In this document: positions 21,245-39,171 of the stretch, piece after piece
Layout of the letters: each line of letters starts with the position of its first letter
Position numbering within the stretch: position 1 is the stretch's first letter
NCBI RefSeq assembly: GCF_018918045.1
Contig: NZ_JAHLPU010000068.1
Span: 1 to 39,405, forward strand
Source of the DNA: Pseudoflavonifractor sp. MSJ-30
Lineage (GTDB): Bacteria; Bacillota; Clostridia; Oscillospirales; Oscillospiraceae
Length of the DNA: 39,405 nucleotides
Direction: 5' to 3'
Translations under genes and position numbers: made by a program
The notes under the pieces: generated by a model
Told to the model about the DNA's origin: nothing
Seen by the model: the letters and a program-made list of their open reading frames with translations, nothing else
The model's database searches: none

Positions 21245-22765
21245 TCAATCCGCGGAACACTTCTCTGTCCGTTTCTGTTCCAATTCCGCTCTCAGAATAA
21301 TGCCGAGGGTCAGGCAGTAATCCGGGTCTTTGAGGTCGCTGCCCAGCATGGCGGTGATGTGGGCCAGACGGTCCAGCAGCGTGGAGCGGTGCAGAAACAG
21401 TGCCGCGGCGGTTTTTGCCACGGAGAGGTTGTTATCCAGATAGACCCGGAGGGTATGCAAATAGGACACCTGAGAGTGGTCATCATGTTCTTTCAGCCGC
21501 TTCAGCCCCTCCGTGTAAAAAACCCAGGTGGGACGTCCGGACAGCGCGCCGCTGAGAAGCTGGGGAAGCAGATAATTCTGGAAGTAGAAGATGGACGCGC
21601 CGTTTCCCTGACAAAGGCCGTTTTGCAGGGCCGCGGATGCCTGAAACCAGGCGTGATTCGCGTCGTACAGATTGGAAAAGGAAGAGGAAATGCCGCAGAC
21701 GACCCCCAGCTTTTCCAGAACCGGGCGCAGAGCGTCTATGGACTCTTTTTTTGCCTGATCCACAGGGAGAAACTCCGCCACGGCATCCTCAAATTCAAAG
21801 GCCAACGCGCCCGGATGCCGCTCCTCCAGAGCGGCTGAGAGATAGGCCCCCGGAAGATGCGTACTGCCGGATTCCGGAATCAGCTTGACACAGACCCAGT
21901 CCTGCTTTCCGCTTTCCGCGCTCAGGGCCCGGCGGTATTCAAAATCGATGCTTTGCCCGGAGATGACGCTGCGCAGCGCCCGGCGCACAGCGGTCCGGGT
22001 ACCGGCCAGCACCGGATTGAGCTGGATGGCCTGCCGCAGAAGCTTGGAGAAGAAAACAGCCAGAGCCTTGTCGGAATCCCGGAAAAGCCGGGTGCCTTCA
22101 AAAACGGTCAGGCAGCCCAGATACTCCTCCTGATCGAAGATATTCACAGAGAGGGTACGCTTCCCCTGCAATTCCAGCAGCAGCGGCTCCCGCACGTGGT
22201 TGGACATGTCATGCAGAGACAGGAATGTGGCCATTTTCTCCACGTCAAAGGACTGGGTATCCAGCTGTAACCCCAGCTCGTTTTGCAGATACCCCTCCTC
22301 TGTGACCCCCAGATAGCGGAAGTCCGAGCCGATGAGCAGCATGGGGTTTTCAAAAATGCTCCGGCTGGCATCCAGCATTTGCGGCAGGGCCGCGCCATGA
22401 CGCAGGATGGACCAGAGCCGTTCCTCCCAGGCATCGTACAGGTTGAATACCTCCTGCACCAGATTGAACACCCGGAAAATATCCCATTGGCCCTCTACCA
22501 GAATCACGCTGCACCGGTCATAACCGGCGTTGAGGTCCCGGCGCTGCCCCAGGCACACCAGGCATACGTTTTCCCCGAAGCGGGGGCTTTGGGGCAGATG
22601 GTCCGCGGAGCAGACATACACCCTGTTTTTTTCAAAGGACTGGGTGCGGTCCAGATAAAACTCCGGCCGGTTCAGCGTCAGTTCGCTGCCGGTTTTGCCC
22701 CGCAGCGTGACCGTTGTCAGTTTTTCTTTCAGCCGCCAATAGAGAATATCCGCGCACAGCTTCAT
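21245..22765 (-). CDS. PucR family transcriptional regulator
   Basis: A 506-residue regulator of the PucR/CdaR type. The C-terminal helix-turn-helix is clear: LRVYLDNNLSVAKTAAALFLHRSTLLDRL, the HTH_30 form. The central part resembles the GGDEF-like region of the family, and the N terminus is a poorly conserved sensory region, possibly GAF-like, that would detect a substrate. The start is the ATG at 22765, 7 nt after GGGAGG. It is transcribed divergently from the operon at 23188-27078, as expected for its regulator. Members usually activate catabolic genes in response to a small molecule. Confidence 0.88.
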   Translation of the reverse strand: MKLCADILYWRLKEKLTTVTLRGKTGSELTLNRPEFYLDRTQSFEKNRVYVCSADHLPQSPRFGENVCLVCLGQRRDLNAGYDRCSVILVEGQWDIFRVFNLVQEVFNLYDAWEERLWSILRHGAALPQMLDASRSIFENPMLLIGSDFRYLGVTEEGYLQNELGLQLDTQSFDVEKMATFLSLHDMSNHVREPLLLELQGKRTLSVNIFDQEEYLGCLTVFEGTRLFRDSDKALAVFFSKLLRQAIQLNPVLAGTRTAVRRALRSVISGQSIDFEYRRALSAESGKQDWVCVKLIPESGSTHLPGAYLSAALEERHPGALAFEFEDAVAEFLPVDQAKKESIDALRPVLEKLGVVCGISSSFSNLYDANHAWFQASAALQNGLCQGNGASIFYFQNYLLPQLLSGALSGRPTWVFYTEGLKRLKEHDDHSQVSYLHTLRVYLDNNLSVAKTAAALFLHRSTLLDRLAHITAMLGSDLKDPDYCLTLGIILRAELEQKRTEKCSAD

Positions 22766-22794
22766 AAGGCCGCCTCCCATAGAAGATTGCATTT

Positions 22795-22823: not shown

Positions 22824-22833
22824 GGTACCTCCC

Positions 22834-22989
22834 GTACATTTTGTATGGGAGGTCCTTGCTTTATAGGGAATATTCACAAATTTCGCCCCTATAAATTGTA
22901 TGGTTTGGCGGAATACAAATTGTACGGTGCAGGGTGGGCAAAAACACCGTTTTTGTAGAATACCCTCTTCGGTGTTTTTTCACTATAAT
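22834..22989 (+). promoter_or_regulatory. Operon promoter with three repeated palindromic boxes
   Basis: Three copies of a TACAAATTGTA-like near-palindrome, each followed by TGG or CGG, lie at 22835-22845, 22890-22900 and 22914-22924 (centres 55 and 24 bp apart). The -10 of the operon promoter, TATAAT at 22984-22989, is perfect but no hexamer near TTGACA exists 16-18 bp upstream, so activation by a bound regulator is likely. An AACACCG/CGGTGTT inverted repeat (about 22943-22976) spans the -35 area. The boxes centre about 156, 101 and 77 bp before the expected start. Confidence 0.6.
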
Positions 22990-23000
22990 GGAGCTACAGC

Positions 23001-23166
23001 TAAGGAAACTCTGAATAAATCGTCTGCGGCTGAGCGGCGAATCTTTTGCTCCCAGTCTGCGGTTTGAAAAATGGGAAATACATACAGTATTCCCTCATTT
23101 TCCAAACCTTGCCTGGAACCAAAATCTTTCGCCGTCAGCTCTTGTCGATTTAATCAGAGCTTCCCT
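23001..23166. repeat. Dispersed palindromic repeat, family B copy 2
   Basis: This element of about 166 bp ends in imperfect inverted repeats (GGAAACTCTGAATAAATCG and CGATTTAATCAGAGCTTCC). Its centre (23067-23102) is nearly identical, in the opposite orientation, to 14729-14762. It begins about 5 bp after the predicted transcription start and ends about 20 bp before the first ATG, so it makes up most of the operon's 5' UTR. Confidence 0.75.
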
Positions 23167-23187
23167 AAAGAAGTTAGGAGGCACACC

Positions 23188-24408
23188 ATGCTGAAAGAAA
23201 AACTGGATACCAGAAAATGCTTCGCCACCGCCTGGGGCAAGCTTATCACGGAAGAAGAGGCCTACCGGCAGCTGAACCGGCAAATCGCCGCCATGACCGC
23301 CAACCTCTTCCAGGTCATGCGGATCTTTGAGCCAAGCTGGGAAAAGCGCACCGCCGCCATCTGCGACATTGCCAATATGATGAATATGGCAGTGGCCGGT
23401 TCCCCGGAGGAACAAAAGGCTTATGTAAACCAAGCCCTTTATGAAGCCTTCAACATCCCGGAGCTTTGCGAAAAGTCCAGCTGGCTGGGGGGCATCACCG
23501 GCGACTCCGGTGACGAATGGGAGAATATGGCCGGTCGTGTGGTACAATTCACCCGGAACCGGGTGGAAAAGGAGCTGGATACCTGCCCCTGGGACATTGT
23601 AGGCAGCGAGCTTTGCAACATGACCACCAGCATGTTCACCGCCAACTTTGACCTGGCCTCCTCCAACGGAACGGAGAATGAGGTGGCTCTGAACATGTGT
23701 CAGGCCCGTGGCTGCGGAAACAAGCATTGCCGGGTGGTGGCGGAGCGCCGGGATGTTTATAACCTGCCCAAGCAGGATTGGCTGGAGCATATGCAGCAGC
23801 CGGTAGACCCCATCCACGATACCCCCCGGGAGCGGATGGTCAAAGAGGGGCAGTGCCTGCGCAACGGCCAGTATACCCAGAACTTCGGAGAAGAGACCTC
23901 TCTGGAAACCGCCTACCACTGGGTCGCCCAGATGGGATGGGTCTGGTCCATCCAGTTCCCCATGATGGCCATTAAGGACATGGCCCCTGACGAAGAGGAG
24001 TTCCTGCGGGTATTCCGCATTGTGTTTGCCACGGCGGGCAAGAATCAGTTTATTGACCCCTTTGCCAAGGAGGGCCTGCGGAGCTTCCTGGGCGTTCCCC
24101 ACGAGATGGATGAAAACGACGGACGGCTTCTGGGCGGCTATATCCGCTATATGCTGGATGTACAGCAGGTCCCCTACGAAATGGTCCGCTGGACCAGGGA
24201 CGAGACCTGGATCAAGGTCAAGAGTGAAGACTTCACCGCCCGCTACGAAATGGCCCCGCTGGATGAACTGATCGACGCCTACGAGGCCCAGTGGAACGGT
24301 GCCGCCAAGACCCTGGTCAGCCCTGAGTGGTCCTGCGTCATTGAGGACCGGGAGGAAGAAGAAATGTACATCAAGGTCATCCGCAAAGAAGATCTGCGGA
24401 TGCTGTAA
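23188..24408 (+). CDS. Cysteine-motif protein, V4R/ATC-hydrolase-like, function unknown
   Basis: This 406-residue soluble protein begins at the ATG at 23188, 6 nt after AGGAGG. A central segment, MCQARGCGNKHCR (about residues 170-183), resembles the cysteine-rich end of V4R domains and the CxxGxxxC region of proteins annotated as 2-aminothiazoline-4-carboxylate hydrolases; I cannot choose between these. Preceding it is FDLASSNGTENEV. The second half (from about residue 230) is a separate, acidic domain without a motif I know. It heads the operon and is followed 14 bp later by the GcvT-like gene, so it may prepare the substrate or bind a ligand for that enzyme. Confidence 0.5.
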   Translation: MLKEKLDTRKCFATAWGKLITEEEAYRQLNRQIAAMTANLFQVMRIFEPSWEKRTAAICDIANMMNMAVAGSPEEQKAYVNQALYEAFNIPELCEKSSWLGGITGDSGDEWENMAGRVVQFTRNRVEKELDTCPWDIVGSELCNMTTSMFTANFDLASSNGTENEVALNMCQARGCGNKHCRVVAERRDVYNLPKQDWLEHMQQPVDPIHDTPRERMVKEGQCLRNGQYTQNFGEETSLETAYHWVAQMGWVWSIQFPMMAIKDMAPDEEEFLRVFRIVFATAGKNQFIDPFAKEGLRSFLGVPHEMDENDGRLLGGYIRYMLDVQQVPYEMVRWTRDETWIKVKSEDFTARYEMAPLDELIDAYEAQWNGAAKTLVSPEWSCVIEDREEEEMYIKVIRKEDLRML

Positions 24409-24422
24409 GGAGGTGCCGGAAT

Positions 24423-25412
24423 ATGCTGTTTAAAGAAGATACCGTTGCCCGCGCCGATGCCATGGCCATCCGTCAAGGCGTTGGCTTCTATCGATGGACC
24501 CATGATCTGGTGGAGATCACCGGTAAGGATGCCCTGGAGGTGCTGCAAAAAATCTACATCAGCGACCTGTCCAAGGTGCCTGTCGGAAAGTCCAAATACA
24601 CCGCCTCTCTGGATGAACAGGGAGAGATCATCGATGATGTGATCGTCATGCACATGGCTGACGGCCTGTACTGGGTCTCTGACCTGTATGGCCCCCGGCT
24701 GCTGCCCTGGATCGAAAAGCACAAGGGGAACGCCGACATTCAGGCGAAAATCATCACCTACAACTGGGACATGTACGCCGTGCAGGGCCCGGACAGCCTG
24801 AAGGCCATGAATGCCCTGCTGGACGCACCGGTGGACGAGCTGAAACGCTTTGCCATCTGTGAAAGAAAAATCGGGGATATTCCCGTTTATATCCACCGCT
24901 CCGGCTTCACCGGGGAAAACGGCTATGAGATTTACGCCGCCTTTGACCAGAGTCAGGCCATCCACGATGCCGCTTTGAAAGCCGTGGAAAGTGTTGGCGG
25001 CCGGGAACTGCAAACTTTGGAGGTCTATGTCCGCTCCATTCCCATGGAGAAGGGCTTCGCGCTGAAGCAGGATTTCAAGCACCTGAGTCCCTGCGAATGC
25101 GGCCTGGGCTGGGCTGTAGCCACCGAGAAAGACTTCATCGGCAAAGAGGCCGCCCTGGAACGGAAGGCCAACCCCAAATACCGGATGGTGGGTCTGGAAT
25201 TCTCCCGGGAATCCACGGAGGACATTTCCATCTGGGAGCGGGTGTACTGGTATGGCGTAGAGGTGGGCCGCTGCGCCCAGACCATCTACGGCTACACCGT
25301 GGAAAAGAATATCGGCTTCGCCACAGTCCGGGCAGATGTCCCCGACGGTGCGGAGCTGACCGTCGGCTGCAACGATTCGCCCGCTGTTGTCGTAAACAAG
25401 GTTTTCTGCTGA
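24423..25412 (+). CDS. GcvT-like aminomethyltransferase/demethylase paralogue
   Basis: A 329-residue protein of the GcvT fold. Landmarks are GEIIDDVIV (with the folate-site Asp of GcvT), the RSGFTGENGYEIY turn, PMEKGFALKQDF, CGLGWAV and DFIGKEAAL. Family members move one-carbon groups to tetrahydrofolate: the glycine cleavage T-protein, sarcosine and dimethylglycine oxidases, DMSP demethylase (DmdA) and aryl-ether demethylases (LigM, DesA). No gcvH or gcvP is nearby, so it is not the glycine cleavage T-protein of a local operon. Between a putative substrate-binding protein and two dehydrogenases, a THF-dependent demethylation role is plausible. AGGAGGTG precedes the start. Confidence 0.8.
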   Translation: MLFKEDTVARADAMAIRQGVGFYRWTHDLVEITGKDALEVLQKIYISDLSKVPVGKSKYTASLDEQGEIIDDVIVMHMADGLYWVSDLYGPRLLPWIEKHKGNADIQAKIITYNWDMYAVQGPDSLKAMNALLDAPVDELKRFAICERKIGDIPVYIHRSGFTGENGYEIYAAFDQSQAIHDAALKAVESVGGRELQTLEVYVRSIPMEKGFALKQDFKHLSPCECGLGWAVATEKDFIGKEAALERKANPKYRMVGLEFSRESTEDISIWERVYWYGVEVGRCAQTIYGYTVEKNIGFATVRADVPDGAELTVGCNDSPAVVVNKVFC

Positions 25413-25422
25413 GGAGGACATT

Positions 25423-26184
25423 ATGGGAAGATTAGATGGTAAAGTCTGCATCGTGACCGGCGCTTCCGCCGGGATCGGGCGCGCCACGGCGGAGCTGTTC
25501 TGCCGCGAGGGCGCGAAGGTCGTGGCGGTCGCCCGCCGCGAAGAATGCCTGAAGGAGTTGGCCGAGGAATGCAAGGATGCTCCCGGTGAAATGACGTGGT
25601 ACGCGGGCGACGTCGGCGCCACGGCGGTAGCCGTGGGCATGGTGAAAAAGGCAGTCGAGACGTTTGGACGGTTGGACGTTGCCGTCAACTGCGCGGGCGT
25701 GATGGACGACAATACCGCCATTGCCGATATGTCGGATGAAATGCTGGAAAAGACGTTCCGCATCAACACGTTCGGCCTGATGTACGGCCTGCGCGAGGAA
25801 TGCAAACAGTATCTAGCACAGGGCGACGGCGGTGTAATCGTCAACATCTGCTCCGTCGGCGCAACGCACCAGACCGCGGGCGCGGCCTACTGCGCGAGCA
25901 AGGGCGCGGTGCTGGCGGCGACGAAGAACACGGCGTTCATGTACATGGAGGAGGGCATCCGCTGCAACGCGCTCTCGCCCGGCGGCGTCGTGACCGATAT
26001 TCCGCTGGTCATGCCGCCCGCCGACGAGTTCGGCTTCGGCAGGACCAGCAAGCTGCTGGACTTCTCCGGGGAGCTTGCCATGCCGGAGGATCTGGCGGAT
26101 GCCATTTTGTTCCTGGCCAGTGACCAGTCCCGCTACGTCAACGGTGAAGAACTCAAGTGTGACGGCGGCTGGACCTGTTTCTAA
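25423..26184 (+). CDS. Short-chain dehydrogenase/reductase (classical SDR)
   Basis: A 253-residue classical SDR: TGASAGIG cofactor loop, NCAG structural motif, catalytic Ser in NICSVG, YCASK catalytic Tyr/Lys, and the usual C-terminal RYVNGEELKCDGGW. The residue pattern (VARREE after strand 2) leaves NAD or NADP preference unclear. It starts 10 bp after the GcvT-like stop, with AGGAGG. Arginine codons are mostly CGC, whereas neighbouring genes mix CGG and CGC, and GCG/CGC-rich wording dominates the first two thirds. This suggests a different origin or a mosaic gene. Substrate unknown; relatives include hydroxysteroid and polyol dehydrogenases. Confidence 0.9.
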   Translation: MGRLDGKVCIVTGASAGIGRATAELFCREGAKVVAVARREECLKELAEECKDAPGEMTWYAGDVGATAVAVGMVKKAVETFGRLDVAVNCAGVMDDNTAIADMSDEMLEKTFRINTFGLMYGLREECKQYLAQGDGGVIVNICSVGATHQTAGAAYCASKGAVLAATKNTAFMYMEEGIRCNALSPGGVVTDIPLVMPPADEFGFGRTSKLLDFSGELAMPEDLADAILFLASDQSRYVNGEELKCDGGWTCF

Positions 26185-26190
26185 CGTCCC

Positions 26191-26216
26191 GGGCCGCCCC
26201 CATAAGGGGGCGGCCC
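26191..26216 (+). other. Intercistronic hairpin inside the SDR operon
   Basis: A perfect 11-bp stem GGGCCGCCCCC/GGGGGCGGCCC with a 4-nt loop lies between the two SDR genes, followed by ATAAAAATC. With no real U tract it is more likely an mRNA-stability or partial-termination element that lowers expression of the second SDR. Confidence 0.55.
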
Positions 26217-26238
26217 ATAAAAATCAGGAGGTATCAAC

Positions 26239-27078
26239 ATGAAGAAAACCATCACAGTGGTAACCGGCGGTCACGGCGGCATGGGAAAGGCCATCTGCAA
26301 GGAGCTTGGCAAGGACTCTGCCATTGTCCTGGCCGGACGGAATGAAAAGAAAATGGCCGCCGCAAAGGAACAGTTTGAGGAACTAGGTATTGAAAGCTAC
26401 ATCTGCAAAACGGATATTTCGGATGCCGTCCAGGCAGAGGCTCTGGCGGCCTACGCCGCTTCTCTGGGCGAGGTCAGGCGGGTGATCCACACCTCCGGCG
26501 TTTCCCCCAGTGACACAGGTACGGAGAACATCATCCGGATCAACGCGGTGGGTACCGTGAACATGGTCAAGGCCTTTTATCCGGTTCTGGCCGAGGGCGG
26601 CGTCATGATCAATTTTTCCTCTGTGGCGGCCTATACCATGCCTCAGACAGAGGAATGGACCCAGGCCTTTGAATGCTGGGATCAGCCGGACTTCTACGAC
26701 AAAATGCTGGCTCTGGCCGGAGAAGCCGAGGATGAGGAAAGCGAGTTTTTCCGTGCCGGTCTGGCCTATGCCATGTCCAAAAAATTTGTGATCTACTTTA
26801 CCCAGAAGAATGTTTCCCGGTTTGCGGAAAAGCACTGCCGCATCCTCTCCATTTCTCCCGGCTGCTATCTGACCCCCATGCACCAAAAGCTCATTGACAA
26901 CCAGCCGGAAACCGCAGAAAACCAGCTGGAACTGATTCCGGCGGGACGCTGGGGCCATCCCTATGAAATGGGTGCGCTGACGGCGTTCCTGTGTTCTGCC
27001 GGTGCCGGATACATCAACGGCGTGGACATTCTCGCCGACGGCGGTCAGAACGCCGGGGTTTTTGTCCCGCAGATTTGA
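26239..27078 (+). CDS. Short-chain dehydrogenase/reductase, second paralogue
   Basis: A 279-residue SDR. The cofactor loop is TGGHGGMGKA, an unusual form of TGxxxGxG with two extra Gly-His positions; the active-site Tyr/Lys is YAMSK, and the C terminus has GAGYINGVDILADGGQ. A stretch of about 35 residues before the YxxxK (EWTQAFECWDQPDFYDKML) is longer than in classical SDRs and would line the substrate pocket. AGGAGG precedes the ATG at 26239. It closes the operon and is followed by a bidirectional terminator. Confidence 0.88.
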   Translation: MKKTITVVTGGHGGMGKAICKELGKDSAIVLAGRNEKKMAAAKEQFEELGIESYICKTDISDAVQAEALAAYAASLGEVRRVIHTSGVSPSDTGTENIIRINAVGTVNMVKAFYPVLAEGGVMINFSSVAAYTMPQTEEWTQAFECWDQPDFYDKMLALAGEAEDEESEFFRAGLAYAMSKKFVIYFTQKNVSRFAEKHCRILSISPGCYLTPMHQKLIDNQPETAENQLELIPAGRWGHPYEMGALTAFLCSAGAGYINGVDILADGGQNAGVFVPQI

Positions 27079-27087
27079 CAGGCACAT

Positions 27088-27125
27088 AAAACGGGCGGCG
27101 CTCCAATCGGAGTGCCGCCCATTTT
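27088..27125. terminator. Bidirectional terminator between converging SDR genes
   Basis: The stem GGGCGGCGCTCC/GGAGTGCCGCCC (27093-27104, 27109-27120) is flanked by AAAA and ATTTT and serves both the operon on the plus strand and the third SDR on the minus strand. Confidence 0.85.
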
Positions 27126-27146
27126 GAAGGGATGAACCGGGCAAAA

Positions 27147-28016
27147 TCAGTTGGGTGCGGCGTCCAGCGCATCTGTTTCCCAGACGCTGCTCATGCCGTA
27201 GTCAAAATAAATGATCTGACCACTCATATAAGAGAAGATCTGACTGCCGATGGCGACCAGAGGATAGCCCATTTCCTCCGCGGTTGCCCAGCGACCGTTC
27301 CAGCTGTCCAGAAAAATCGCCTCAATGACGGCCTTTCCCTCGGCTGCGTCGCCGTTTGGCGAGGTGTTCCGGTTAAACTCATCGGTCAGTCCCGTGATCG
27401 TATTGCCGGGATTGATGGCATTCAGGCGAATTTTGCGGTCGATGTATTCCGGCGCGTGGACTTTCATTTTGACATACGTGCACAGGCACTGCTTGGAGAA
27501 GACATAGCCGTTCTGAATGACATCAGGGTGCGCGGCATACCAGTCGAGCGCAGCCTCATAGCTCGGGGCATTTACGACTGCTGCGCAGTCTGCAAAGGCA
27601 TCCTGCCAGCCAAAGCCGCCGGTCGAGGCGATGATATTGACAGAGCCGTTCTCCGCAATTTTTGGCAGCGTCTTTTCCAGCAGATATTTGTGACCGAGGA
27701 AATTGACCTTCTGCACCTCCAGCGCATTGGAGGCATCCGCTTTCAGCGCGATACCGTGGCAGAGGAACATGGCATCGATCGTTTCCGGCAGCGCATCTGC
27801 AAGCGCATCCAGATCCGCCTTGACGCCGAAGTCGGCGTACAGCTCGCCTGCGACTGGAAAATCCAGCTTACTGTGCCGCCCGTTGCGGCGGCAGATCGTA
27901 TAAACGTTTGCCCCGAGCTCCTGCAGCAGCCGTGCCGCAGCCAGTCCCATGCCGGAGTATGCTCCGGAAACGACAACCGTTTTTCCCTCATATCCAAACA
28001 GGTTTTTCAGATCCAT
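27147..28016 (-). CDS. Third short-chain dehydrogenase/reductase (3-alpha-HSDH/coniferyl alcohol dehydrogenase-like)
   Basis: A 289-residue SDR beginning MDLKNLFGYEGKTVVVSGAYSGMG, with the TGxxxGxG loop varied to SGAYSGMG. The catalytic Tyr/Lys is GYVFSK, and FNRN plus an extended region before it match the group annotated as coniferyl-alcohol dehydrogenase or 3-alpha-hydroxysteroid dehydrogenase. The ending VWETDALDAAPN is polar. The ribosome binding site GAAAGGAAAAC is fair. It lies downstream of the small DUF1858-like gene beyond a strong terminator and has no obvious promoter, so expression may depend on termination control. Confidence 0.85.
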   Translation of the reverse strand: MDLKNLFGYEGKTVVVSGAYSGMGLAAARLLQELGANVYTICRRNGRHSKLDFPVAGELYADFGVKADLDALADALPETIDAMFLCHGIALKADASNALEVQKVNFLGHKYLLEKTLPKIAENGSVNIIASTGGFGWQDAFADCAAVVNAPSYEAALDWYAAHPDVIQNGYVFSKQCLCTYVKMKVHAPEYIDRKIRLNAINPGNTITGLTDEFNRNTSPNGDAAEGKAVIEAIFLDSWNGRWATAEEMGYPLVAIGSQIFSYMSGQIIYFDYGMSSVWETDALDAAPN

Positions 28017-28041
28017 ATTGTTTTCCTTTCATGCAGCATAC

Positions 28042-28071
28042 AAAAAGGAGCCTGTGGTCAGGCTCCTTTTT
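28042..28071 (-). terminator. Strong terminator between DUF1858-like and SDR genes
   Basis: The stem AAAAAGGAGCCTG/CAGGCTCCTTTTT (28042-28054, 28059-28071) has a 4-nt loop and a T5 tail. It sits 12 bp after the small gene's stop and 26 bp before the SDR start. Confidence 0.9.
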
Positions 28072-28082
28072 GGCTTCGGTAA

Positions 28083-28295
28083 TTACTCGATCGCCTGAAG
28101 CTCCTTGTCCAGTTCCTCCAGATGGGGCTTGAGGAACGCCGACTGCGGGAAGCTGGCGAGCTTGCGCAGCGTCAGGCCGCCAACCAGCTTCATCTGGGGA
28201 TTCTTGGAAGCATCAGGGCTGTACTTATCCAGAACCGCTGCCGCCGCCGGATTCTTCAGAATGTCCTTTACCTTGCTGTCGAGAGAAAATGCCAT
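28083..28295 (-). CDS. Small helical DUF1858-like domain protein
   Basis: A 70-residue protein: MAFSLDSKVKDILKNPAAAAVLDKY, then an NPQMKLVGGLTLRKLASFP segment and a helical tail. The first helix pair resembles DUF1858-type domains that in Clostridia occur alone or fused to hydrolases and oxidoreductases, but the CxxC-type cysteines of DUF1858 are absent, so metal or cluster binding is unlikely. AGGAGG precedes the ATG. It is the first gene on a transcript that may continue to the third SDR, suggesting an accessory or docking role. Confidence 0.65.
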   Translation of the reverse strand: MAFSLDSKVKDILKNPAAAAVLDKYSPDASKNPQMKLVGGLTLRKLASFPQSAFLKPHLEELDKELQAIE

Positions 28296-32649: not shown

Positions 32650-35600
32650 ATGTTCAAACGCATCCTGTCTTCCCTGCTGGTTCTGGTGACGCTGGTCTCC
32701 TTCCTGCCGCCGAAGGTTTCGGCAGAGGGGACGGAGAACATCCAGAGCGAAAACGAAACCACCATGGAGGCCACCAATTCCTTCGGCAGCCTGCTGGTAA
32801 ATACGCTGGACGCGGACCCGTCTGCCGGCCAGCCTGTGGAAAGCGGCTCGGAGGAGCCCCAAAGCGGGATCAGCGATCTGCAGATCGAGGGCACCACGGC
32901 CTACGCGGAATACTATACCGAGCGGCCCGCCAAGCTGGTTGTCGCCATCTACACCGAGGACGGCGCCAGAATGCTGGGCTCCGGCGTCACGGAGGTCAGC
33001 CCGGAGGAAACTCAGGCTGAGGTGGACATCCAGATCAGCCCCATGCCCCGGTACTATTCCGCCGGCGCCTTCCTGCTGGACGCCGAGACGAATGAGCCTC
33101 TGTCTTCAGAGTTCCGGACCCAGCTGTACACCAAAGCGGTGCAGGACGTCCGGGAGGCCACGGTGGACGACTTCGACCCCGCCAGAGTTCTGAATCTGGA
33201 CGACAGCGACGAGACAAACTTCGCCGTTTTCGGAGAGAACACCCTGCTGCTGTACGAGAGCAGCACCTACGCGGACGACGAGCCCATGGCCTTCGCCCAG
33301 ACCGGCGAGGGCGTGTATGTCTTTGAAAACGCCGGACCTGAACTGCTGGCCCTGAAGCCCGGGGACTCCTTCGCCTACGCCAAGGCCGACGGGGATATCG
33401 TCATTGCCAAGGCCCTTGCCGTACAGGTGACCGGTACCACCGTCACCATTACGGAGGACCCTGACGCGGATCTGTCGGACGTGTTTGAGTTGGTGAAGAT
33501 CGAATCTGACGGCGACCCAAGTCAGGTCACCTATGATGACACCGACCTGGATCCCAGTCTCACGGTTTCCTCTGATGTTCAGGATTTTACTTTCCCGGAG
33601 AACGCCATTTGTTATGAGGGTGAACCTGAAACCTTTAGCAGCCGCGGGACAACAAAAGATACCTTCAGCCTCGGCTTTTCTGTGGATATGGGAGAAACCC
33701 TGAGCGGCAAGGTGTCCCTCAAAGGGACGACAGAAGTCCGCATGTACATCAAACTCAATTATGTCTATACCTCCTACAAACTGGATACATCCCTGGAATT
33801 CAGCGGCTCCGTCAATGCGAAGGTACCGATTCCGGATATTAAGTTCCCTGCTATCAAAATTCCATTGGCCTATGGCGCACGGCTGGAAATCAAGCCCAGC
33901 CTCGTCTTCGAAGTTACCGTCAGCGGCGCCGTCACCATTTCTCTCACGAAGACCGTAGGACACGCCTTTGACTCAGACCTGGGAACCACACAGGACCTTG
34001 GCAAGAAACCTACTCTGAAATTCTCCGTCACCGGCGGCGGAAAGCTGTTCGTCGGTCTGAAGATCATGATCCAAGTCGTATTCGCAAGCGAAAAGGTTTT
34101 TGCCATGGGCGGAAGTCTGAAATTTGGCGGGGAACTATCCCTGAATGATACATGGCAATCCGCATCTACAACCAGCTCTTCCGAAATCCATCTCTGCGCC
34201 GTCTGCTTGGAGGGCGAGATCGATTCCGTCATTGCGGTAGGTTTGGAAATCAAAGCATTGGGGGATTTTATAAAAGTCAATGTCACCCTTGCGGAGAAGA
34301 AAAGCAAGCTGTTTGACGCCTATGTTTCCGCCTCCTATCAGGACATGGGTCTGACCAAGTGTCCGCACAGGCTATACTGTGTGTCCATAACCGTGACCAA
34401 TACAGCGGGAATTCCCAGTTCCGGCCGTCAATATCAGCTGTATAATCAAGACGGCGGCAAAATTGACGAAGTTCAGTACAGAGGCGACTATGGGCAAATC
34501 GTAGGCGGCAGCATAAAGCCCAGTGACGTAAACGGTCAAGTCTCCTTCTACATACCCAACGGGAAGTATGACCTTTGCGAAGGCGATGTCGTTGTTAAGT
34601 CCTTTACCGTACATGATGCGGAGAAAAAGCTGAAGCTTCAGGTTGCTCCTTCTGAAGTTGTCGGCCGCCTGATGCTCTCCACGGACAGCGTCGGCCTCTA
34701 CGTGGGCGGCGACACCAAATCGCTTCGGGCCGTCTATAACGATACCATGGTCAACGCCAATGTGACCAACGCCTGCAGCTGGTCCTCCAGCAATCCGGGC
34801 GTTGTCCGGGTGGAGCAGGGTGTGCTCGTTCCGGTAAGTGCCGGTATGGCATGGGTAACCGCTACCTACCAGAACAGCAAGGGAACGGTAAGCGCCGCCT
34901 GTCAGGTGACCGTTGACGACCATGACCCCACCAAATGCGGCGACAACCTGTACTGGAACATTGACGACAGCGGTACCATGACCATCACCGGTACCGGCGA
35001 CATGTGGGACTATTACTATTACATGGGCGACCGTACCACCGCTCCCTGGTTTGACAAAAAGCCCAAAAAGCTGGTGGTCAGCGAGGGCTGTACCTCCATC
35101 GGCGCTTCCAGCTTCTCCGCCTGCGGCAGTCTGCGGAGCATCCAGCTGCCCGACACTCTGGAGACCATCTCCGATTTTGCCTTTGCGGACTGCACAGGGC
35201 TGACCCGCATCCAGCTGCCCCAAAACCTGACCTACCTTGGGATCAGAGCATTTATGAACTGCACCGGCCTCAGCGGCAATCTGGTCATCCCGGACGGTGT
35301 CTCCGTCATCCATGAGGGTACCTTTGAAGGCTGCACATCCCTGAGCGGAAAGCTGACCCTCCCCGCCAGCCTGGATTGGATCGATGAACGGGCTTTTTAC
35401 GACTGCCCGCTCACCGGCACCCTCAGCCTGCCGGACGGACTGGCCTCCATCTACAACGAGGCATTCAACGGCTGTAAATTCTCCGGCCCCCTGAAGCTGC
35501 CCGCAAGTCTGGACACAATCTACTACGACGCCTTTGCGGGCATCCATTTCACGGGAGATCTGGTCATTTCCGAAAAGCTTGCCCACACCAGCACCCGGTA

Positions 35601-38600
35601 TGCCTTCACCTATGCGCACTTCACCGGCGGGCTGAAACTGCCGGAAAGCACCGTCTCCATCCCGGATTCCGCGTTTGAAGGCGCCAGCTTCGGCGGAGAT
35701 GTGACGATTCCCGGCAAGGTGACCGTCATTGACAGCTGGGCATTCAACTCCTGCGATATTGACGGAAAGCTGACGCTTCCCGCCAGTCTGAAGGAAATCA
35801 AGGATCATGTCTTTGCCAATAGCTCCATTGGAGGCGATGTCTGGTACCTGGGCACGGCGGAAGACTGGGCCAAGGTGAAAATAGGAGAAGAAAACGAAAC
35901 CTTGACCACCGCCACCATCCACTTCTCCGACGGCACCACCAACAAGGATCCGGCCAACACCGATAACGCCGTCAAGACCCAGGGGCCGGAGGCGGATCCC
36001 GCGGATACGATTCCCGAGGAAGCCATTCCCGAAACCGTTGCCCCCGAGACCACTGTCCCGGAAACCACCGTCCCCGAAACCACCGTCCCCGAAACCACTG
36101 TCCCCGAAACCACTGTCCCCGAAACCACTGTCCCCGAAACCACCGCTCCCGCGGAAGAGACCGACCCGGAGACTACCGGGGAGCCGCCCGCAGAGGACGC
36201 GGATATCCAGGCGCTGGCGGCCAGAGGCTTCTGCATCGCCCCCCATGGCGCCAGACAGACCTTCGGCACAGTAACGCCGCTGGCGGCCTACACCGGCAAG
36301 GAAACCGTGAAAAACGGCCGACGGACCGCCGCCTTTACGGGGCTGGAGCCCGGCGAGGAATATGTACTCATTGTAAGCCTGCAGCCGGGCAGCGTGGCCC
36401 CGGAGGATCTGCAGTACATCGAGCAGGCCACCGCGGACGCCAACGGCGCGGCCCAGTTCACCTATATTCCCAGAACAGACGTCACCGCCCTGACCCAGCT
36501 CTACGGCATCAGCGCCCAGCGCTCCCTGACGCTGGACCGGGAATATCTGGCGCTGACCGCGGGCGCTCTGCCCGAACAGCTTACCGCGGACCTGACGCCC
36601 CCGGAGTGGGCCGGCGACCTCGTCTGGGCCTCTGACAACGAGGAGATTGCTGCCGTGGACGAAAACGGCAATGTGACCCCCGCTGCCGCAGGCACGACCT
36701 ACATTTCCGCCTCCGTCACCCACGGACGCTACACCCTCACCGCCCGGTGCCGGGTGGACGTCACGGAAGAGCTGCCCAATGAGGAGGTTCTGGGCGTAGA
36801 TCTGGGGGTAAAGAAGGTCACGGCGGAACTTTACAGCACGGATTACGCCGCTCTGGATATTCTGCCGCGGCTGGCCCAGAATGAGATTGCCGTCTTCCGC
36901 ATGGCGCCTCAGGACAACGGTGCGGCCGTTACCGGGGCTTACCTTGAGGACGAGGAAGCCCGGGCCCTGTTTGACCTGAAGGTCAAGGACGACCGGCAGC
37001 TGCTTCTGGTGCCCACCCGGCAGGCGCTGGACGCCCCGGCAAAGGAAATTAAGAACAGCTATACCAGCCGCCTGGTAGTGCTGATCGGCGGCGTGGAATA
37101 CCGGACGGAGGACGCCGTGACCATTGCGGTCAAAAAAAGCACCCCGAAGCTGAAGGGCACAAATCTGACCTTCAATTCCTTCTATACGAACCAAAGCCAG
37201 GCTCTGAATATCACAGGCGGCACCGTCACCCGCATTGAGGGCGAGCTTCCCCAGTGGCTGGCCATGGACGGCACCCGGCTGACCCTGCGGAACGCTCCGG
37301 CTTCCGGCAGCGCCGCACTGAACCTGCAGGTCTATACCGCGGAATGGGCCATTCCCGCTCAGGTAAAGCTCACCGTGAAGCTGAGCCAGAAAGCTCCCGC
37401 CGTCAAGCTCTCCAAGTCTTCCGTTGCCCTGTCCGATCAGGACAGCACCGGCGTGACCCTGAGGCTGAACTGCGGCAAGGAGACGCCGGAGTCTCTGGGC
37501 ATTCGGGATATTCTCCTGCCGGAGGGCTTCCTGAGCACCGAACTTGACCAGCTGACCGGCGAGTTCCGCCTGATTCCCACGGGCCAGGTTCCCACCGGAA
37601 AGCAGCAGATCGGCGTTCGATTCTACAACACCGACTCCGTGCTGTACCTGCCCCTTACCGTCACCGCCAAGGCTCCCGCGCTGAAGCTGAGCAAAAGCTC
37701 CGTCAGCCTGAACGGAGAGCTGGGAGACAGCATCACGCTGAAGGTGACCGCCGCTCCCGCTGACCTGGATCTGACCGCTGTCACCGTCCAAAATCCCTAT
37801 GACGAACTGACGGTCTCCCCGGTCCTTGCGGACGGTTCCTTTACCGTCTCCGTGAAACCGGGCACCGCCCCGAAAGCGACCTACGCGCTGTCCCTTCAGG
37901 CCCCCACCGGCAAGGCCGCAAAACTGACGGTGAAGACGCTGGCCGCCGGCCAGAAGGTGACCATGCGCCTGAAGGCCCTGGGCAGCTTCGACCTGACCTA
38001 TCCCGAAAAGGGTGTGGCGTTGGTGCCTGCCCTGAAAAACTACTCCGGCGCTCTGACGGACATCGCCTACAGCCTCTCTTTGAAGCGTGGCCGCGACACG
38101 CAGGACGTGGAACTGACTGACTACCTGACCGTAGGCGAGGACGGACTTCTCCGGCTCACCGGCCAGCTGGACGCCGGAACTGTCTGTCTGCTCACCGAAA
38201 CCGGAAAGCTGCCGGACGGCACCGCCGTTTCCGCCACGGTACAGGTGAAGGTCACCCAGACCGCCATTCCCCTGAAGCTCAGCAAAACCAGCCTGAGCCT
38301 GAACAGGGCTTTGAACGAATGGGCTCAGGTACAGGTCACCACGACCGCCAAAGGCTACACTCTGGGCACTCCGGGCATTCTGGTGACGGACAGCAGGAAT
38401 GTCCCCAGCGACGGCCTCACTGTTTCCTACACCCAAGGCACACTGACCCTTGCCGTCAATGACAGCACCCAGTACGGCGCTTCCTACAAAGTGCAGCTGT
38501 GGGCAACGGACAACAGGAAGTCCACGCTCACCGTAAAGGTTCCCGCGGAGAAGGCCTCCGCCGTTGTGGTAACCGCGAAAACCACCGGCTTCATCGATGT

Positions 38601-39171
38601 GATCCGGGACACCACCCAGATCGTGGTAACCCCCGGCTACAGGAACTATCTGGGCTATACGCCGCTGGAAAAACAGGCAAAGATCCTTTGGGCAGCGGAC
38701 GGGAAGAACTACACCCAGGACGTGACGAACCTGTTTGATCTGACCTGGGCCGATGACGGCAAGCTGAAGCTGAGCCGCGCCGGAGAATTGCAGCTTACGG
38801 GCAAGTACCGGCTGGAGCTGGCAGTTCAGGGCGCAGCCAAGCCCGCGCTGGTAAACCTGACCCTGAAATCCGGCACGGCCAAGGTGACCGCCGCCCCGGC
38901 GGTGCTCTACAGCAAGGACGCCAACACTCTGGCGATCCTGCAATTCACCAGCCCGGACGGGACATTGAACACCCTGCATTCCGTAGAGCTGAAGGACGCG
39001 AAGCAGAGGGCCAATTACGCCATCCTCGATTTCGGAAACGGCCAGTTTGCTCTGGTTCCCCAGCCCGGCGCAGCGCTGAAGTCCGGCAATGTTGCTCTGA
39101 ACCTGTTCTTCACCGGCAACACCACCGGAAAACCCAACGCAGCCGTAAACGTGAAGGTCGAGATCCGGTAA
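32650..39171 (+). CDS. Giant secreted repeat protein with BspA-type LRRs and Ig-like domains
   Basis: A 2173-residue exported protein. The signal peptide is MFKRILSSLLVLVTLVSFLPPKVSA. Residues about 30-310 form an acidic Ig-like part, and about 330-650 a beta-rich region of unknown type with clearly lower GC content. Next come a Big_2-like domain (about 679-760), about nine BspA-type leucine-rich repeats (775-1090), the PETTV linker (1127-1166), a second Big_2-like domain (about 1294-1370) and at least three KLSKSSV-started beta modules (about 1585, 1679 and 1876). There is no LPXTG, SLH or other anchor at the C terminus, so it may be released or bound non-covalently. BspA-like proteins bind host or microbial surfaces; that role is inferred. 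The start at 32650 follows AGAAGG. Confidence 0.88.
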   Translation: MFKRILSSLLVLVTLVSFLPPKVSAEGTENIQSENETTMEATNSFGSLLVNTLDADPSAGQPVESGSEEPQSGISDLQIEGTTAYAEYYTERPAKLVVAIYTEDGARMLGSGVTEVSPEETQAEVDIQISPMPRYYSAGAFLLDAETNEPLSSEFRTQLYTKAVQDVREATVDDFDPARVLNLDDSDETNFAVFGENTLLLYESSTYADDEPMAFAQTGEGVYVFENAGPELLALKPGDSFAYAKADGDIVIAKALAVQVTGTTVTITEDPDADLSDVFELVKIESDGDPSQVTYDDTDLDPSLTVSSDVQDFTFPENAICYEGEPETFSSRGTTKDTFSLGFSVDMGETLSGKVSLKGTTEVRMYIKLNYVYTSYKLDTSLEFSGSVNAKVPIPDIKFPAIKIPLAYGARLEIKPSLVFEVTVSGAVTISLTKTVGHAFDSDLGTTQDLGKKPTLKFSVTGGGKLFVGLKIMIQVVFASEKVFAMGGSLKFGGELSLNDTWQSASTTSSSEIHLCAVCLEGEIDSVIAVGLEIKALGDFIKVNVTLAEKKSKLFDAYVSASYQDMGLTKCPHRLYCVSITVTNTAGIPSSGRQYQLYNQDGGKIDEVQYRGDYGQIVGGSIKPSDVNGQVSFYIPNGKYDLCEGDVVVKSFTVHDAEKKLKLQVAPSEVVGRLMLSTDSVGLYVGGDTKSLRAVYNDTMVNANVTNACSWSSSNPGVVRVEQGVLVPVSAGMAWVTATYQNSKGTVSAACQVTVDDHDPTKCGDNLYWNIDDSGTMTITGTGDMWDYYYYMGDRTTAPWFDKKPKKLVVSEGCTSIGASSFSACGSLRSIQLPDTLETISDFAFADCTGLTRIQLPQNLTYLGIRAFMNCTGLSGNLVIPDGVSVIHEGTFEGCTSLSGKLTLPASLDWIDERAFYDCPLTGTLSLPDGLASIYNEAFNGCKFSGPLKLPASLDTIYYDAFAGIHFTGDLVISEKLAHTSTRYAFTYAHFTGGLKLPESTVSIPDSAFEGASFGGDVTIPGKVTVIDSWAFNSCDIDGKLTLPASLKEIKDHVFANSSIGGDVWYLGTAEDWAKVKIGEENETLTTATIHFSDGTTNKDPANTDNAVKTQGPEADPADTIPEEAIPETVAPETTVPETTVPETTVPETTVPETTVPETTVPETTAPAEETDPETTGEPPAEDADIQALAARGFCIAPHGARQTFGTVTPLAAYTGKETVKNGRRTAAFTGLEPGEEYVLIVSLQPGSVAPEDLQYIEQATADANGAAQFTYIPRTDVTALTQLYGISAQRSLTLDREYLALTAGALPEQLTADLTPPEWAGDLVWASDNEEIAAVDENGNVTPAAAGTTYISASVTHGRYTLTARCRVDVTEELPNEEVLGVDLGVKKVTAELYSTDYAALDILPRLAQNEIAVFRMAPQDNGAAVTGAYLEDEEARALFDLKVKDDRQLLLVPTRQALDAPAKEIKNSYTSRLVVLIGGVEYRTEDAVTIAVKKSTPKLKGTNLTFNSFYTNQSQALNITGGTVTRIEGELPQWLAMDGTRLTLRNAPASGSAALNLQVYTAEWAIPAQVKLTVKLSQKAPAVKLSKSSVALSDQDSTGVTLRLNCGKETPESLGIRDILLPEGFLSTELDQLTGEFRLIPTGQVPTGKQQIGVRFYNTDSVLYLPLTVTAKAPALKLSKSSVSLNGELGDSITLKVTAAPADLDLTAVTVQNPYDELTVSPVLADGSFTVSVKPGTAPKATYALSLQAPTGKAAKLTVKTLAAGQKVTMRLKALGSFDLTYPEKGVALVPALKNYSGALTDIAYSLSLKRGRDTQDVELTDYLTVGEDGLLRLTGQLDAGTVCLLTETGKLPDGTAVSATVQVKVTQTAIPLKLSKTSLSLNRALNEWAQVQVTTTAKGYTLGTPGILVTDSRNVPSDGLTVSYTQGTLTLAVNDSTQYGASYKVQLWATDNRKSTLTVKVPAEKASAVVVTAKTTGFIDVIRDTTQIVVTPGYRNYLGYTPLEKQAKILWAADGKNYTQDVTNLFDLTWADDGKLKLSRAGELQLTGKYRLELAVQGAAKPALVNLTLKSGTAKVTAAPAVLYSKDANTLAILQFTSPDGTLNTLHSVELKDAKQRANYAILDFGNGQFALVPQPGAALKSGNVALNLFFTGNTTGKPNAAVNVKVEIR
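36028..36147 (+). repeat. 15-bp tandem repeat encoding PETTV linker
   Basis: Eight consecutive 15-bp units (consensus CCCGAAACCACYGTC) encode PETVA, six PETTV and PETTA. Some adjacent units are identical, so the number may vary between strains by slippage. The Pro/Thr-rich linker separates the LRR half from the Ig-like half and would be extended and possibly glycosylated. Confidence 0.9.

Follow-up and report, generated by a model that had tools for sequence, protein, structure and literature searches.

Here, I describe a conserved gene cluster carried by a 39,405-nucleotide stretch of the genome of Pseudoflavonifractor sp. MSJ-30 (contig NZ_JAHLPU010000068.1 of assembly GCF_018918045.1, positions 1 to 39,405, hereafter the window), which comprises a PucR-type regulator, a protein of an unnamed family (g1), a GcvT-fold one-carbon transferase of the tetrahydrofolate (THF) type (g2), three short-chain dehydrogenases/reductases (SDRs; g3, g4 and g5) and a small helical protein (g6). 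The gene set is a real unit under selection, conserved far beyond chance, and its core is made of g6, PucR, g1, g2 and a single SDR; two of the three SDRs are accessory. The case is evenly poised for regarding this core as an inducible module for one-carbon removal: its substrate would be a small molecule, probably aromatic or hydrophobic in some other way, and the carbon would go to THF via g2. On the best reading, the new part is g1, a V4R-fold partner within a substrate-induced, THF-dependent module for one-carbon removal.

A genome scan found 127 loci, the best 80 of which were kept; addition of the window and of five other stretches gives a set of 86 loci (numbered with L) and 87 g1 genes. 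Co-occurrence of the six genes was the check named beforehand by the first-pass annotation of the window, made from its letters, and it is borne out. All six genes and the PucR gene are present where that annotation had placed them. g2 lies directly 3' of g1 in 79 of the 80 g1 genes with room for it (more than 500 nt downstream), at a median spacing of 14 nt across loci; in the exception, L103, g2 is on the opposite side. An SDR, that is any gene with g3, g4 or g5 as best match, follows g1 at a distance of at most 2.6 kb in all 74 cases with room (more than 2000 nt downstream). A divergent PucR gene lies upstream of g1 in 73 of 80 (more than 900 nt upstream), and 43 of the 47 g1 genes with room on both sides have g6 at 6 kb or less. 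The genes of the relatives were called with a codon-model caller and not with a standard gene finder, and the PucR figure is a lower bound because the caller missed the gene in L015, L083 and L090, where it is visible in a plain list of open reading frames (ORFs); the remaining loci without a called PucR are L034, L099, L102 and L103. The four loci devoid of g6 (L094, L098, L102 and L103) all belong to the second of two g1 subfamilies, which are 27-39% alike. The loci include many near copies, so that these counts are not independent events. Core membership of the three SDRs together is not supported, one alone being core: counting the window, g4 is the best match of genes in 9 of the 86 loci, some at just 25-35% identity, and g5 in 7.

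The genes of the set are under purifying selection. The ratio of nonsynonymous to synonymous substitution rates (dN/dS), computed against the near relatives L014-L017, is 0.03-0.06 for g1 and 0.05-0.08 for g2 (three values each, with dS saturated for both genes of L015), 0.03-0.07 for g3 (four values, one over 51 codons), 0.025-0.12 for g6 and 0.15-0.17 for PucR (three each). Against the more distant L025 it amounts to 0.10 for g1, 0.30 for g2, 0.16 for g3, 0.21 for g6 and 0.51 for PucR, and against L039 to 0.18, 0.28 and 0.15 for g1, g2 and g3, 0.05 for g4 and 0.37 for g6. Two g1-SDR fusions (P0042 and P0112) look like chimeras created by deletions in the assemblies, since both of their ends match genes two apart in the cluster, and were kept out of the alignments.

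According to database records, carriers span two phyla and belong to the Oscillospiraceae, Lachnospiraceae (including Blautia), Anaerovoracaceae, Atopobiaceae (including Olsenella), Eggerthellaceae and Coriobacteriaceae; where the records tell, their source is mainly gut or rumen. The g1 family is patchily distributed: 11 of 99 related genomes have it, as do 3 of 291 from the class and 3 of 398 from the phylum, each count including the genome of the window. In a tree of 83 of the 87 g1 genes (those longer than 350 aa), the g1 of the window pairs with a Blautia g1 as its sister (support 99/93); of the other members of their clade that carry a family label, most are Oscillospiraceae. This grouping suggests, without proving it, that the cluster moved between families. 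A case in point for the wider system is L058 (7131-19600, a single Atopobiaceae contig), in which two divergent copies are adjacent, their g1 proteins being 60% and 32% identical to that of the window; the second copy, ordered g6-PucR-g1-g2-g5-g4, carries both accessory SDRs, which are therefore part of a wider system outside the core.

The g2 gene (24423-25412, + strand, 329 aa) encodes the domains GCV_T (E 3e-40, 138.5 bits, cut-off 25.6) and GCV_T_C (E 6e-8, 33 bits, cut-off 25.9). Its best sequence matches are T-protein chains in the PDB and, among NCBIfam families, the GcvT models, where it scores 143 and 123.5 bits, below the cut-offs of 300 and 235.85; it also stays below those of LigM (67 against 580 bits), DesA (76 against 800), DmdA (87 against 410) and trimethylamine N-oxide demethylase (Tdm; 116.5 against 1100). 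Only general aminomethyltransferase names occur among the best 120 of its 787 protein matches. In an alignment with the T-proteins of Thermotoga maritima and Bacillus subtilis, limited to relatives of 300-345 aa and with one LigM-like fragment kept, the counterparts of T. maritima Y83, D96 and E195 are retained by 90% or more of the 74 members aligned, and the ARD...RLE motif of T-proteins is replaced by a V.VRS.P..EKG-like stretch peculiar to the family. For the sesamin enzyme SesA, D95 and E189 are reported as THF contacts (PMC5547118), and these residues would correspond to D96 and E195 of T. maritima. Involvement of THF is very probable. In keeping with the first-pass annotation, which saw no gcvH in the window, a GcvH partner was not found (0 matches to PF01597 in the genome of the window, 2.46 Mb in 75 contigs), yet a missed gene is possible, since the assembly is 94.5% complete; no GCV_T protein other than g2 was found in this genome. 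A role of g2 in glycine cleavage was rejected because no GcvH was found and because its scores are under the cut-offs.

The g1 gene (23188-24408, + strand, 406 aa) has no match over the cut-off in Pfam or NCBIfam and none better than E 0.63 in PDB sequence searches. Relatives number 254 in the protein database with g1 as query and 398 with a distant member, and the best 120 of either search bear only the name 'hypothetical protein'; 32 positions are invariant over 104 members, and the motif GCGNKHCR lies in the first repeat. In the structure model (pLDDT 92), g1 looks like a tandem V4R/TRAPP-like fold as in phenol-sensor domains, each repeat comparing best with the sensor or scaffold domains of MopR, PoxR, H-NOX and TRAPP, in line with the V4R-type fold guessed beforehand. 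Pfam V4R is found neither for g1 nor among the 25 families shown of the 29 matched (E up to 1) by any of the 104 members, the commonest of these families being SAM_PNT (25 members, best E 5e-4; g1 itself 13.3 bits, cut-off 24). When aligned by hhalign with 23 V4R proteins (30 loci, 26 given, 23 used), g1 yields P 0.03 as a whole, 0.09 for the N repeat and 0.01 for the C repeat (27 columns), with probabilities of 0.6-3.6%, as compared with P 0.50-0.70 for g1 against the unrelated g2 and a probability of 90% for the related pair V4R and ATC; the weak alignment sets G-D-x-H-C-R of the N repeat on the V4R motif. Assignment of g1 to the ATC hydrolases (PF14196) is unsupported: there is no Pfam match for g1, none among the same 25 of 29 families, and hhalign gives P 0.07-0.34 (24 loci, 18 given, 17 used).

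The PucR gene (21245-22792, - strand; 21245-22780 from its best coding start) carries a C-terminal HTH_30 domain (PF13556, E 2e-17, 63.1 bits, cut-off 27) and is preceded by a 12-of-12 sigma-70 match at 22823-22795 on the same strand. Adjoining the -35 box of this putative promoter is a putative operator, the inverted repeat ACCTCCCGTACA-TTT-TGTATGGGAGGT at 22827-22853, and two operator-like copies follow, CCCTATAAATTGTATGG at 22887-22903 and GAATACAAATTGTACGG at 22911-22927; all three have counterparts in L014, L016 and L017, and within the window only these sites, all in the PucR-g1 gap, come within two mismatches of the pattern. With up to four mismatches, CCATACANNNTGTATGG matches 60 times in the 20,810 bp of PucR-g1 gaps (46 of 72 loci), as against a mean of 6.9 and a largest value of 14 in 50 first-order shuffles, and 53 times in the remaining gaps of these loci (123,253 bp). 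When the window and the relatives nearest to it are excluded, 48 matches remain (42 of 68 loci) versus 5.7 in shuffled sequence and 46 in 113,537 bp of other gaps. The pattern fits autoregulation by PucR, and a recurring operator at PucR is consistent with the substrate induction proposed earlier. In Olsenella sp. Marseille-P4559 the PucR gene (L066, 8163-9708) reads as two overlapping ORFs, by frameshift or sequencing error.

Further hints come from the neighbourhood. Of the 86 loci, ten have one or more of four folate genes close by (folD in 9, fchA in 9, fhs in 7, folE in 5); the ten beside fhs, fchA or folD come from three lineages. Six Olsenella-type loci have g3 followed by fhs, five of them also fchA-folD-folE (the contig ends in the sixth); in three Eggerthellaceae-type loci (L032, L046 and L053) g3 is followed by fchA-folD, and in L038 (Oscillospiraceae) folD-fchA-fhs lies ahead of g6. 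Their identification rests on Pfam and NCBIfam for L073 and on blast for the other loci. The level expected by chance is about 1% per single-copy gene (at most 21 kb per locus, genome of about 2 Mb), a rough arithmetic made without a control run and for loci that are related. Six loci contain a PanB-like gene (L047, L052, L055, L084, L085 and L098; in the last, PF02548 E 3e-32, far under the PanB cut-offs), and seven a LigM-like one (L079, L081, L084, L085, L086, L088 and L089), five of these with a second PucR. One-carbon transfer to THF, as claimed by the first-pass annotation, fits these neighbours as well as the conserved g2 residues and the absent GcvH.

The module might be pictured as follows. 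PucR would sense the compound and act at the repeated palindromic CCNTACANNNTGTANGG-type sites of the shared promoter region, whose conservation is observed; g1, going by its modelled fold, might bind or activate the substrate; g2, by family and conserved residues, would pass a methyl or methylene carbon to THF; and the SDRs, again by family, would carry out oxidations or reductions at hydroxyl or keto groups, either ahead of the transfer or following it. Where folD, fchA and fhs adjoin the cluster, the one-carbon-folate would be oxidised by their products for ATP; in the organism of the window, where one MetF is present and no Fhs was found over the cut-off (two fragments, 21 and 18 bits), it would go to biosynthesis. 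That the one-carbon unit is removed rather than added is fairly probable, while on the aromatic or hydrophobic nature of the substrate the scales hang level, and direct involvement of g1 in the transfer is somewhat doubtful. The plant, host or steroid origin that the first-pass annotation proposed for the compound finds no support in the data. The boldest version, which I consider unlikely, has g1 found an enzyme class of its own for the release of one-carbon groups: this tandem V4R-fold protein would both hold and activate an aromatic ether, a methylenedioxy or a hydroxymethyl compound and hand the carbon to g2, giving a two-component, corrinoid-free and oxygen-free system of demethylation or demethylenation across gut Bacillota and Coriobacteriia.

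A number of observations weigh against this picture or weaken it. The top Foldseek ranks for g1 are designed proteins, the fold comparison drew on a 1000-chain VIA list, which leaves other folds possible, and the repeat structure rests on the model, hhalign finding the N and C repeats not alike (P 0.17). As for the regulation, the operator pattern was derived from the window and its near relatives, and the shuffles were first-order resamplings; 26 of the 72 loci, including all six of the Olsenella type, have no match; over the whole window the pattern shows no enrichment (11 matches for an expected 10.1), and the 4 promoter-like matches of the region do not exceed chance (3.5 expected).

The reverse direction has its own merits. 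If the cluster served biosynthesis or salvage, g2 would move the methylene of methylene-THF to an acceptor made by the SDRs, as PanB does on ketopantoate, to give a hydroxymethylated or cyclised metabolite; PanB normally runs in this adding direction, and both the PanB-like genes near 6 of the 86 loci and the folE beside five would be accounted for. A divergent PucR with conserved operators is nevertheless usual in catabolic, substrate-induced operons, the patchy presence reported above fits an accessory catabolic trait, and the adjoining fhs-fchA-folD suits the disposal of one-carbon units at least as well, all of which makes this reading rather improbable. Even less is to be said for a variant glycine-cleavage or N-methyl-amine route, in which g2 would be the T-protein for glycine, sarcosine or dimethylglycine and g1 would replace GcvH or a flavoprotein: the top scores of g2 and the public names of its relatives (among the best 120 of 787) are of that kind, yet g2 is far under the GcvT cut-offs, GcvH was not found in the genome, the core is without a flavoprotein family, and SDRs are not known to play a part in such routes. 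I consider this variant very improbable.

Alternatively, g2 alone might be the THF-dependent enzyme, an ordinary demethylase, and g1 a non-catalytic ligand-binding sensor or chaperone. The nearest folds to g1 are indeed those of sensors and scaffolds, and LigM, DesA and SesA are not known to need a partner of the g1 kind. Against it, few genes of the set are under constraint as strong as g1, which has a low dN/dS relative to near relatives and 32 invariant positions and sits a median of 14 nt ahead of g2; this alternative is distinctly unlikely.

Within the window, g1, g2, g3 and g4 follow each other on the + strand with gaps of 14, 10 and 54 nt, and g5 converges on them. The first-pass annotation had PucR diverging from a four-gene operon, and the divergence and the close packing of g1-g2-g3 stand. 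A perfect 11-bp hairpin between g3 and g4 (26191-26216) and a perfect 14-bp one between g6 and g5 (28041-28072), however, make a single g1-g4 operon and a joint g6-g5 unit doubtful; the third SDR and the small helical protein are both present as described. A further hairpin lies between the convergent g4 and g5 (27088-27125). This arrangement points to g1-g2-g3 as the closely knit transcription unit, from which g4, g5 and g6 may be separate. No Rfam match was found between 22700 and 28500. Farther away, a 2173-aa ORF (32650-39171) with a signal-like start, PETT-type repeats and segments that look leucine-rich by eye is probably a large surface protein.

The SDR at the core position, g3 (25423-26184, + strand), matches adh_short (E 4e-44) and adh_short_C2 (E 2e-50) and has YCASK as its YxxxK motif; in Coriobacteriia this position is often held by another SDR, about 30-35% identical. 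The accessory g4 (26239-27078, + strand; adh_short E 6e-25, YAMSK), with a long loop ahead of the motif, reaches 161 bits with PRK06940 (cut-off 280), and g5 (27147-28016, - strand; adh_short E 3e-9, YVFSK), of a coniferyl-alcohol-dehydrogenase-like type, 150 bits with PRK12428 (cut-off 242). g3 and g4 match many general SDRs in PDB sequence searches; g5 has no such match at 1e-10.

The conserved helical protein g6 (28083-28295, - strand, 70 aa; NPQMKLVGGLTLRKLASFPQ) had been called DUF1858-like, a label that finds little backing: no Pfam family, DUF1858 included, matches it at E up to 1, and the sole DUF1858 match of the genome is a different gene (C14, 7909-8067). The hhalign comparison with DUF1858 (29 used of 30 loci given) is not significant, with P 0.027 over 24 columns and unrelated controls at 0.17-0.76. 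With the g6 model (pLDDT 86.2, pTM 0.66), Foldseek ranks 2k5e and 2k53, which I take to be DUF1858 proteins, at a TM of 0.54-0.55 and E 2.5-3.8, after GH3 beta-glucosidases. g6 bears a weak likeness to the C-terminal end of one of the latter (7ms2; E 0.48 with a probability of 0.92 in Foldseek, E 3.9 for residues 678-755 by sequence profile) and to that of a beta-glucuronidase chain (7kgz, E 0.49); it is possible that g6 is the free-standing form of a domain elsewhere attached to enzymes.

Other genes recur around the cluster. A second module, seen in Coriobacteriaceae and in Clostridia of roe deer or goat (L084, 16424-20877; L085, 16424-21221; L052, 450-5754; L055, 306-4298), contains a PanB-like protein together with GroEL-paralogue-like and GAF/LuxR-like proteins (the last two labelled by eye), with an SDR beside or near the PanB-like protein in three of the four loci; L052 also has a second g6-like protein. 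L088 (16751-20835) and L089 (14386-18733), rumen records of Coriobacteriaceae type, each carry a PucR and two LigM/DesA-like genes, three of the four scoring 144-246 bits, below the cut-offs, and are possibly another uncharacterised locus of THF-dependent demethylases in anaerobes. In L098 (16635-18871), a locus of the second subfamily, a BaiCD-like flavoenzyme of the Old Yellow Enzyme (OYE) family (501 bits, cut-off 825) stands beside a SnoaL-like protein, some 4 kb from the SDR of the cluster. A link to steroids or bile acids was dropped and not built upon, because blast with these two proteins labelled this locus alone among the 86.

The removal of methyl groups by anaerobic gut bacteria is usually ascribed to corrinoid proteins. 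A conserved THF-linked module with its own regulator and no evident corrinoid part, carried by livestock and human bacteria, would add to the known ways in which methylated plant, host or drug molecules are handled in the gut, and the unnamed g1 family gains a testable role. Since some carriers are isolates by their database records (a Blautia, a Lachnoclostridium and several Olsenella), the substrate can be sought directly.

That no system with this gene set has been described, as the first-pass annotation had put it, holds within what was searched: no characterised orthologue of the set appears among the best 120 protein matches listed for each query or in the PDB sequence searches, and the cluster was not found described in the open-access literature, preprints excluded. 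Several known systems nonetheless resemble its parts. The corrinoid O-demethylases of acetogens share with the proposed module the anaerobic transfer of methyl groups to THF; in the core, by contrast, no further gene family recurs, corrinoid proteins not having been searched for as such. The V4R/XylR-N sensor domains of MopR, PoxR and DmpR, TRAPPC3/Bet3 and H-NOX are like each g1 repeat in the modelled fold, whereas g1 places two repeats in a free-standing protein, shows no Pfam V4R match and differs in the spacing of its Cys residues. The glycine cleavage T-protein, the best sequence match of g2, has the same Tyr, Asp and Glu, from which g2 departs by its score under the cut-off, the lack of a GcvH found in the genome and the altered ARD...RLE motif. 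LigM and DesA, the O-demethylases of vanillate and syringate, have in common with g2 the GCV_T domain and, presumably, the use of THF; g2 is set apart by its 329 aa and its low scores in both models. Finally, SesA and BrdA are GcvT-like, THF-dependent demethylenases for the plant aromatics sesamin and berberine, with THF as the acceptor and no oxidation needed (PMC5547118). Their hosts are Sinomonas, Rhodococcus, Sphingobium, Arthrobacter and Burkholderia, and the available part of the report mentions no V4R-fold partner; set beside them by description, g2 is akin to both in its GcvT relationship and, presumably, to SesA in the Asp and Glu of the THF site.

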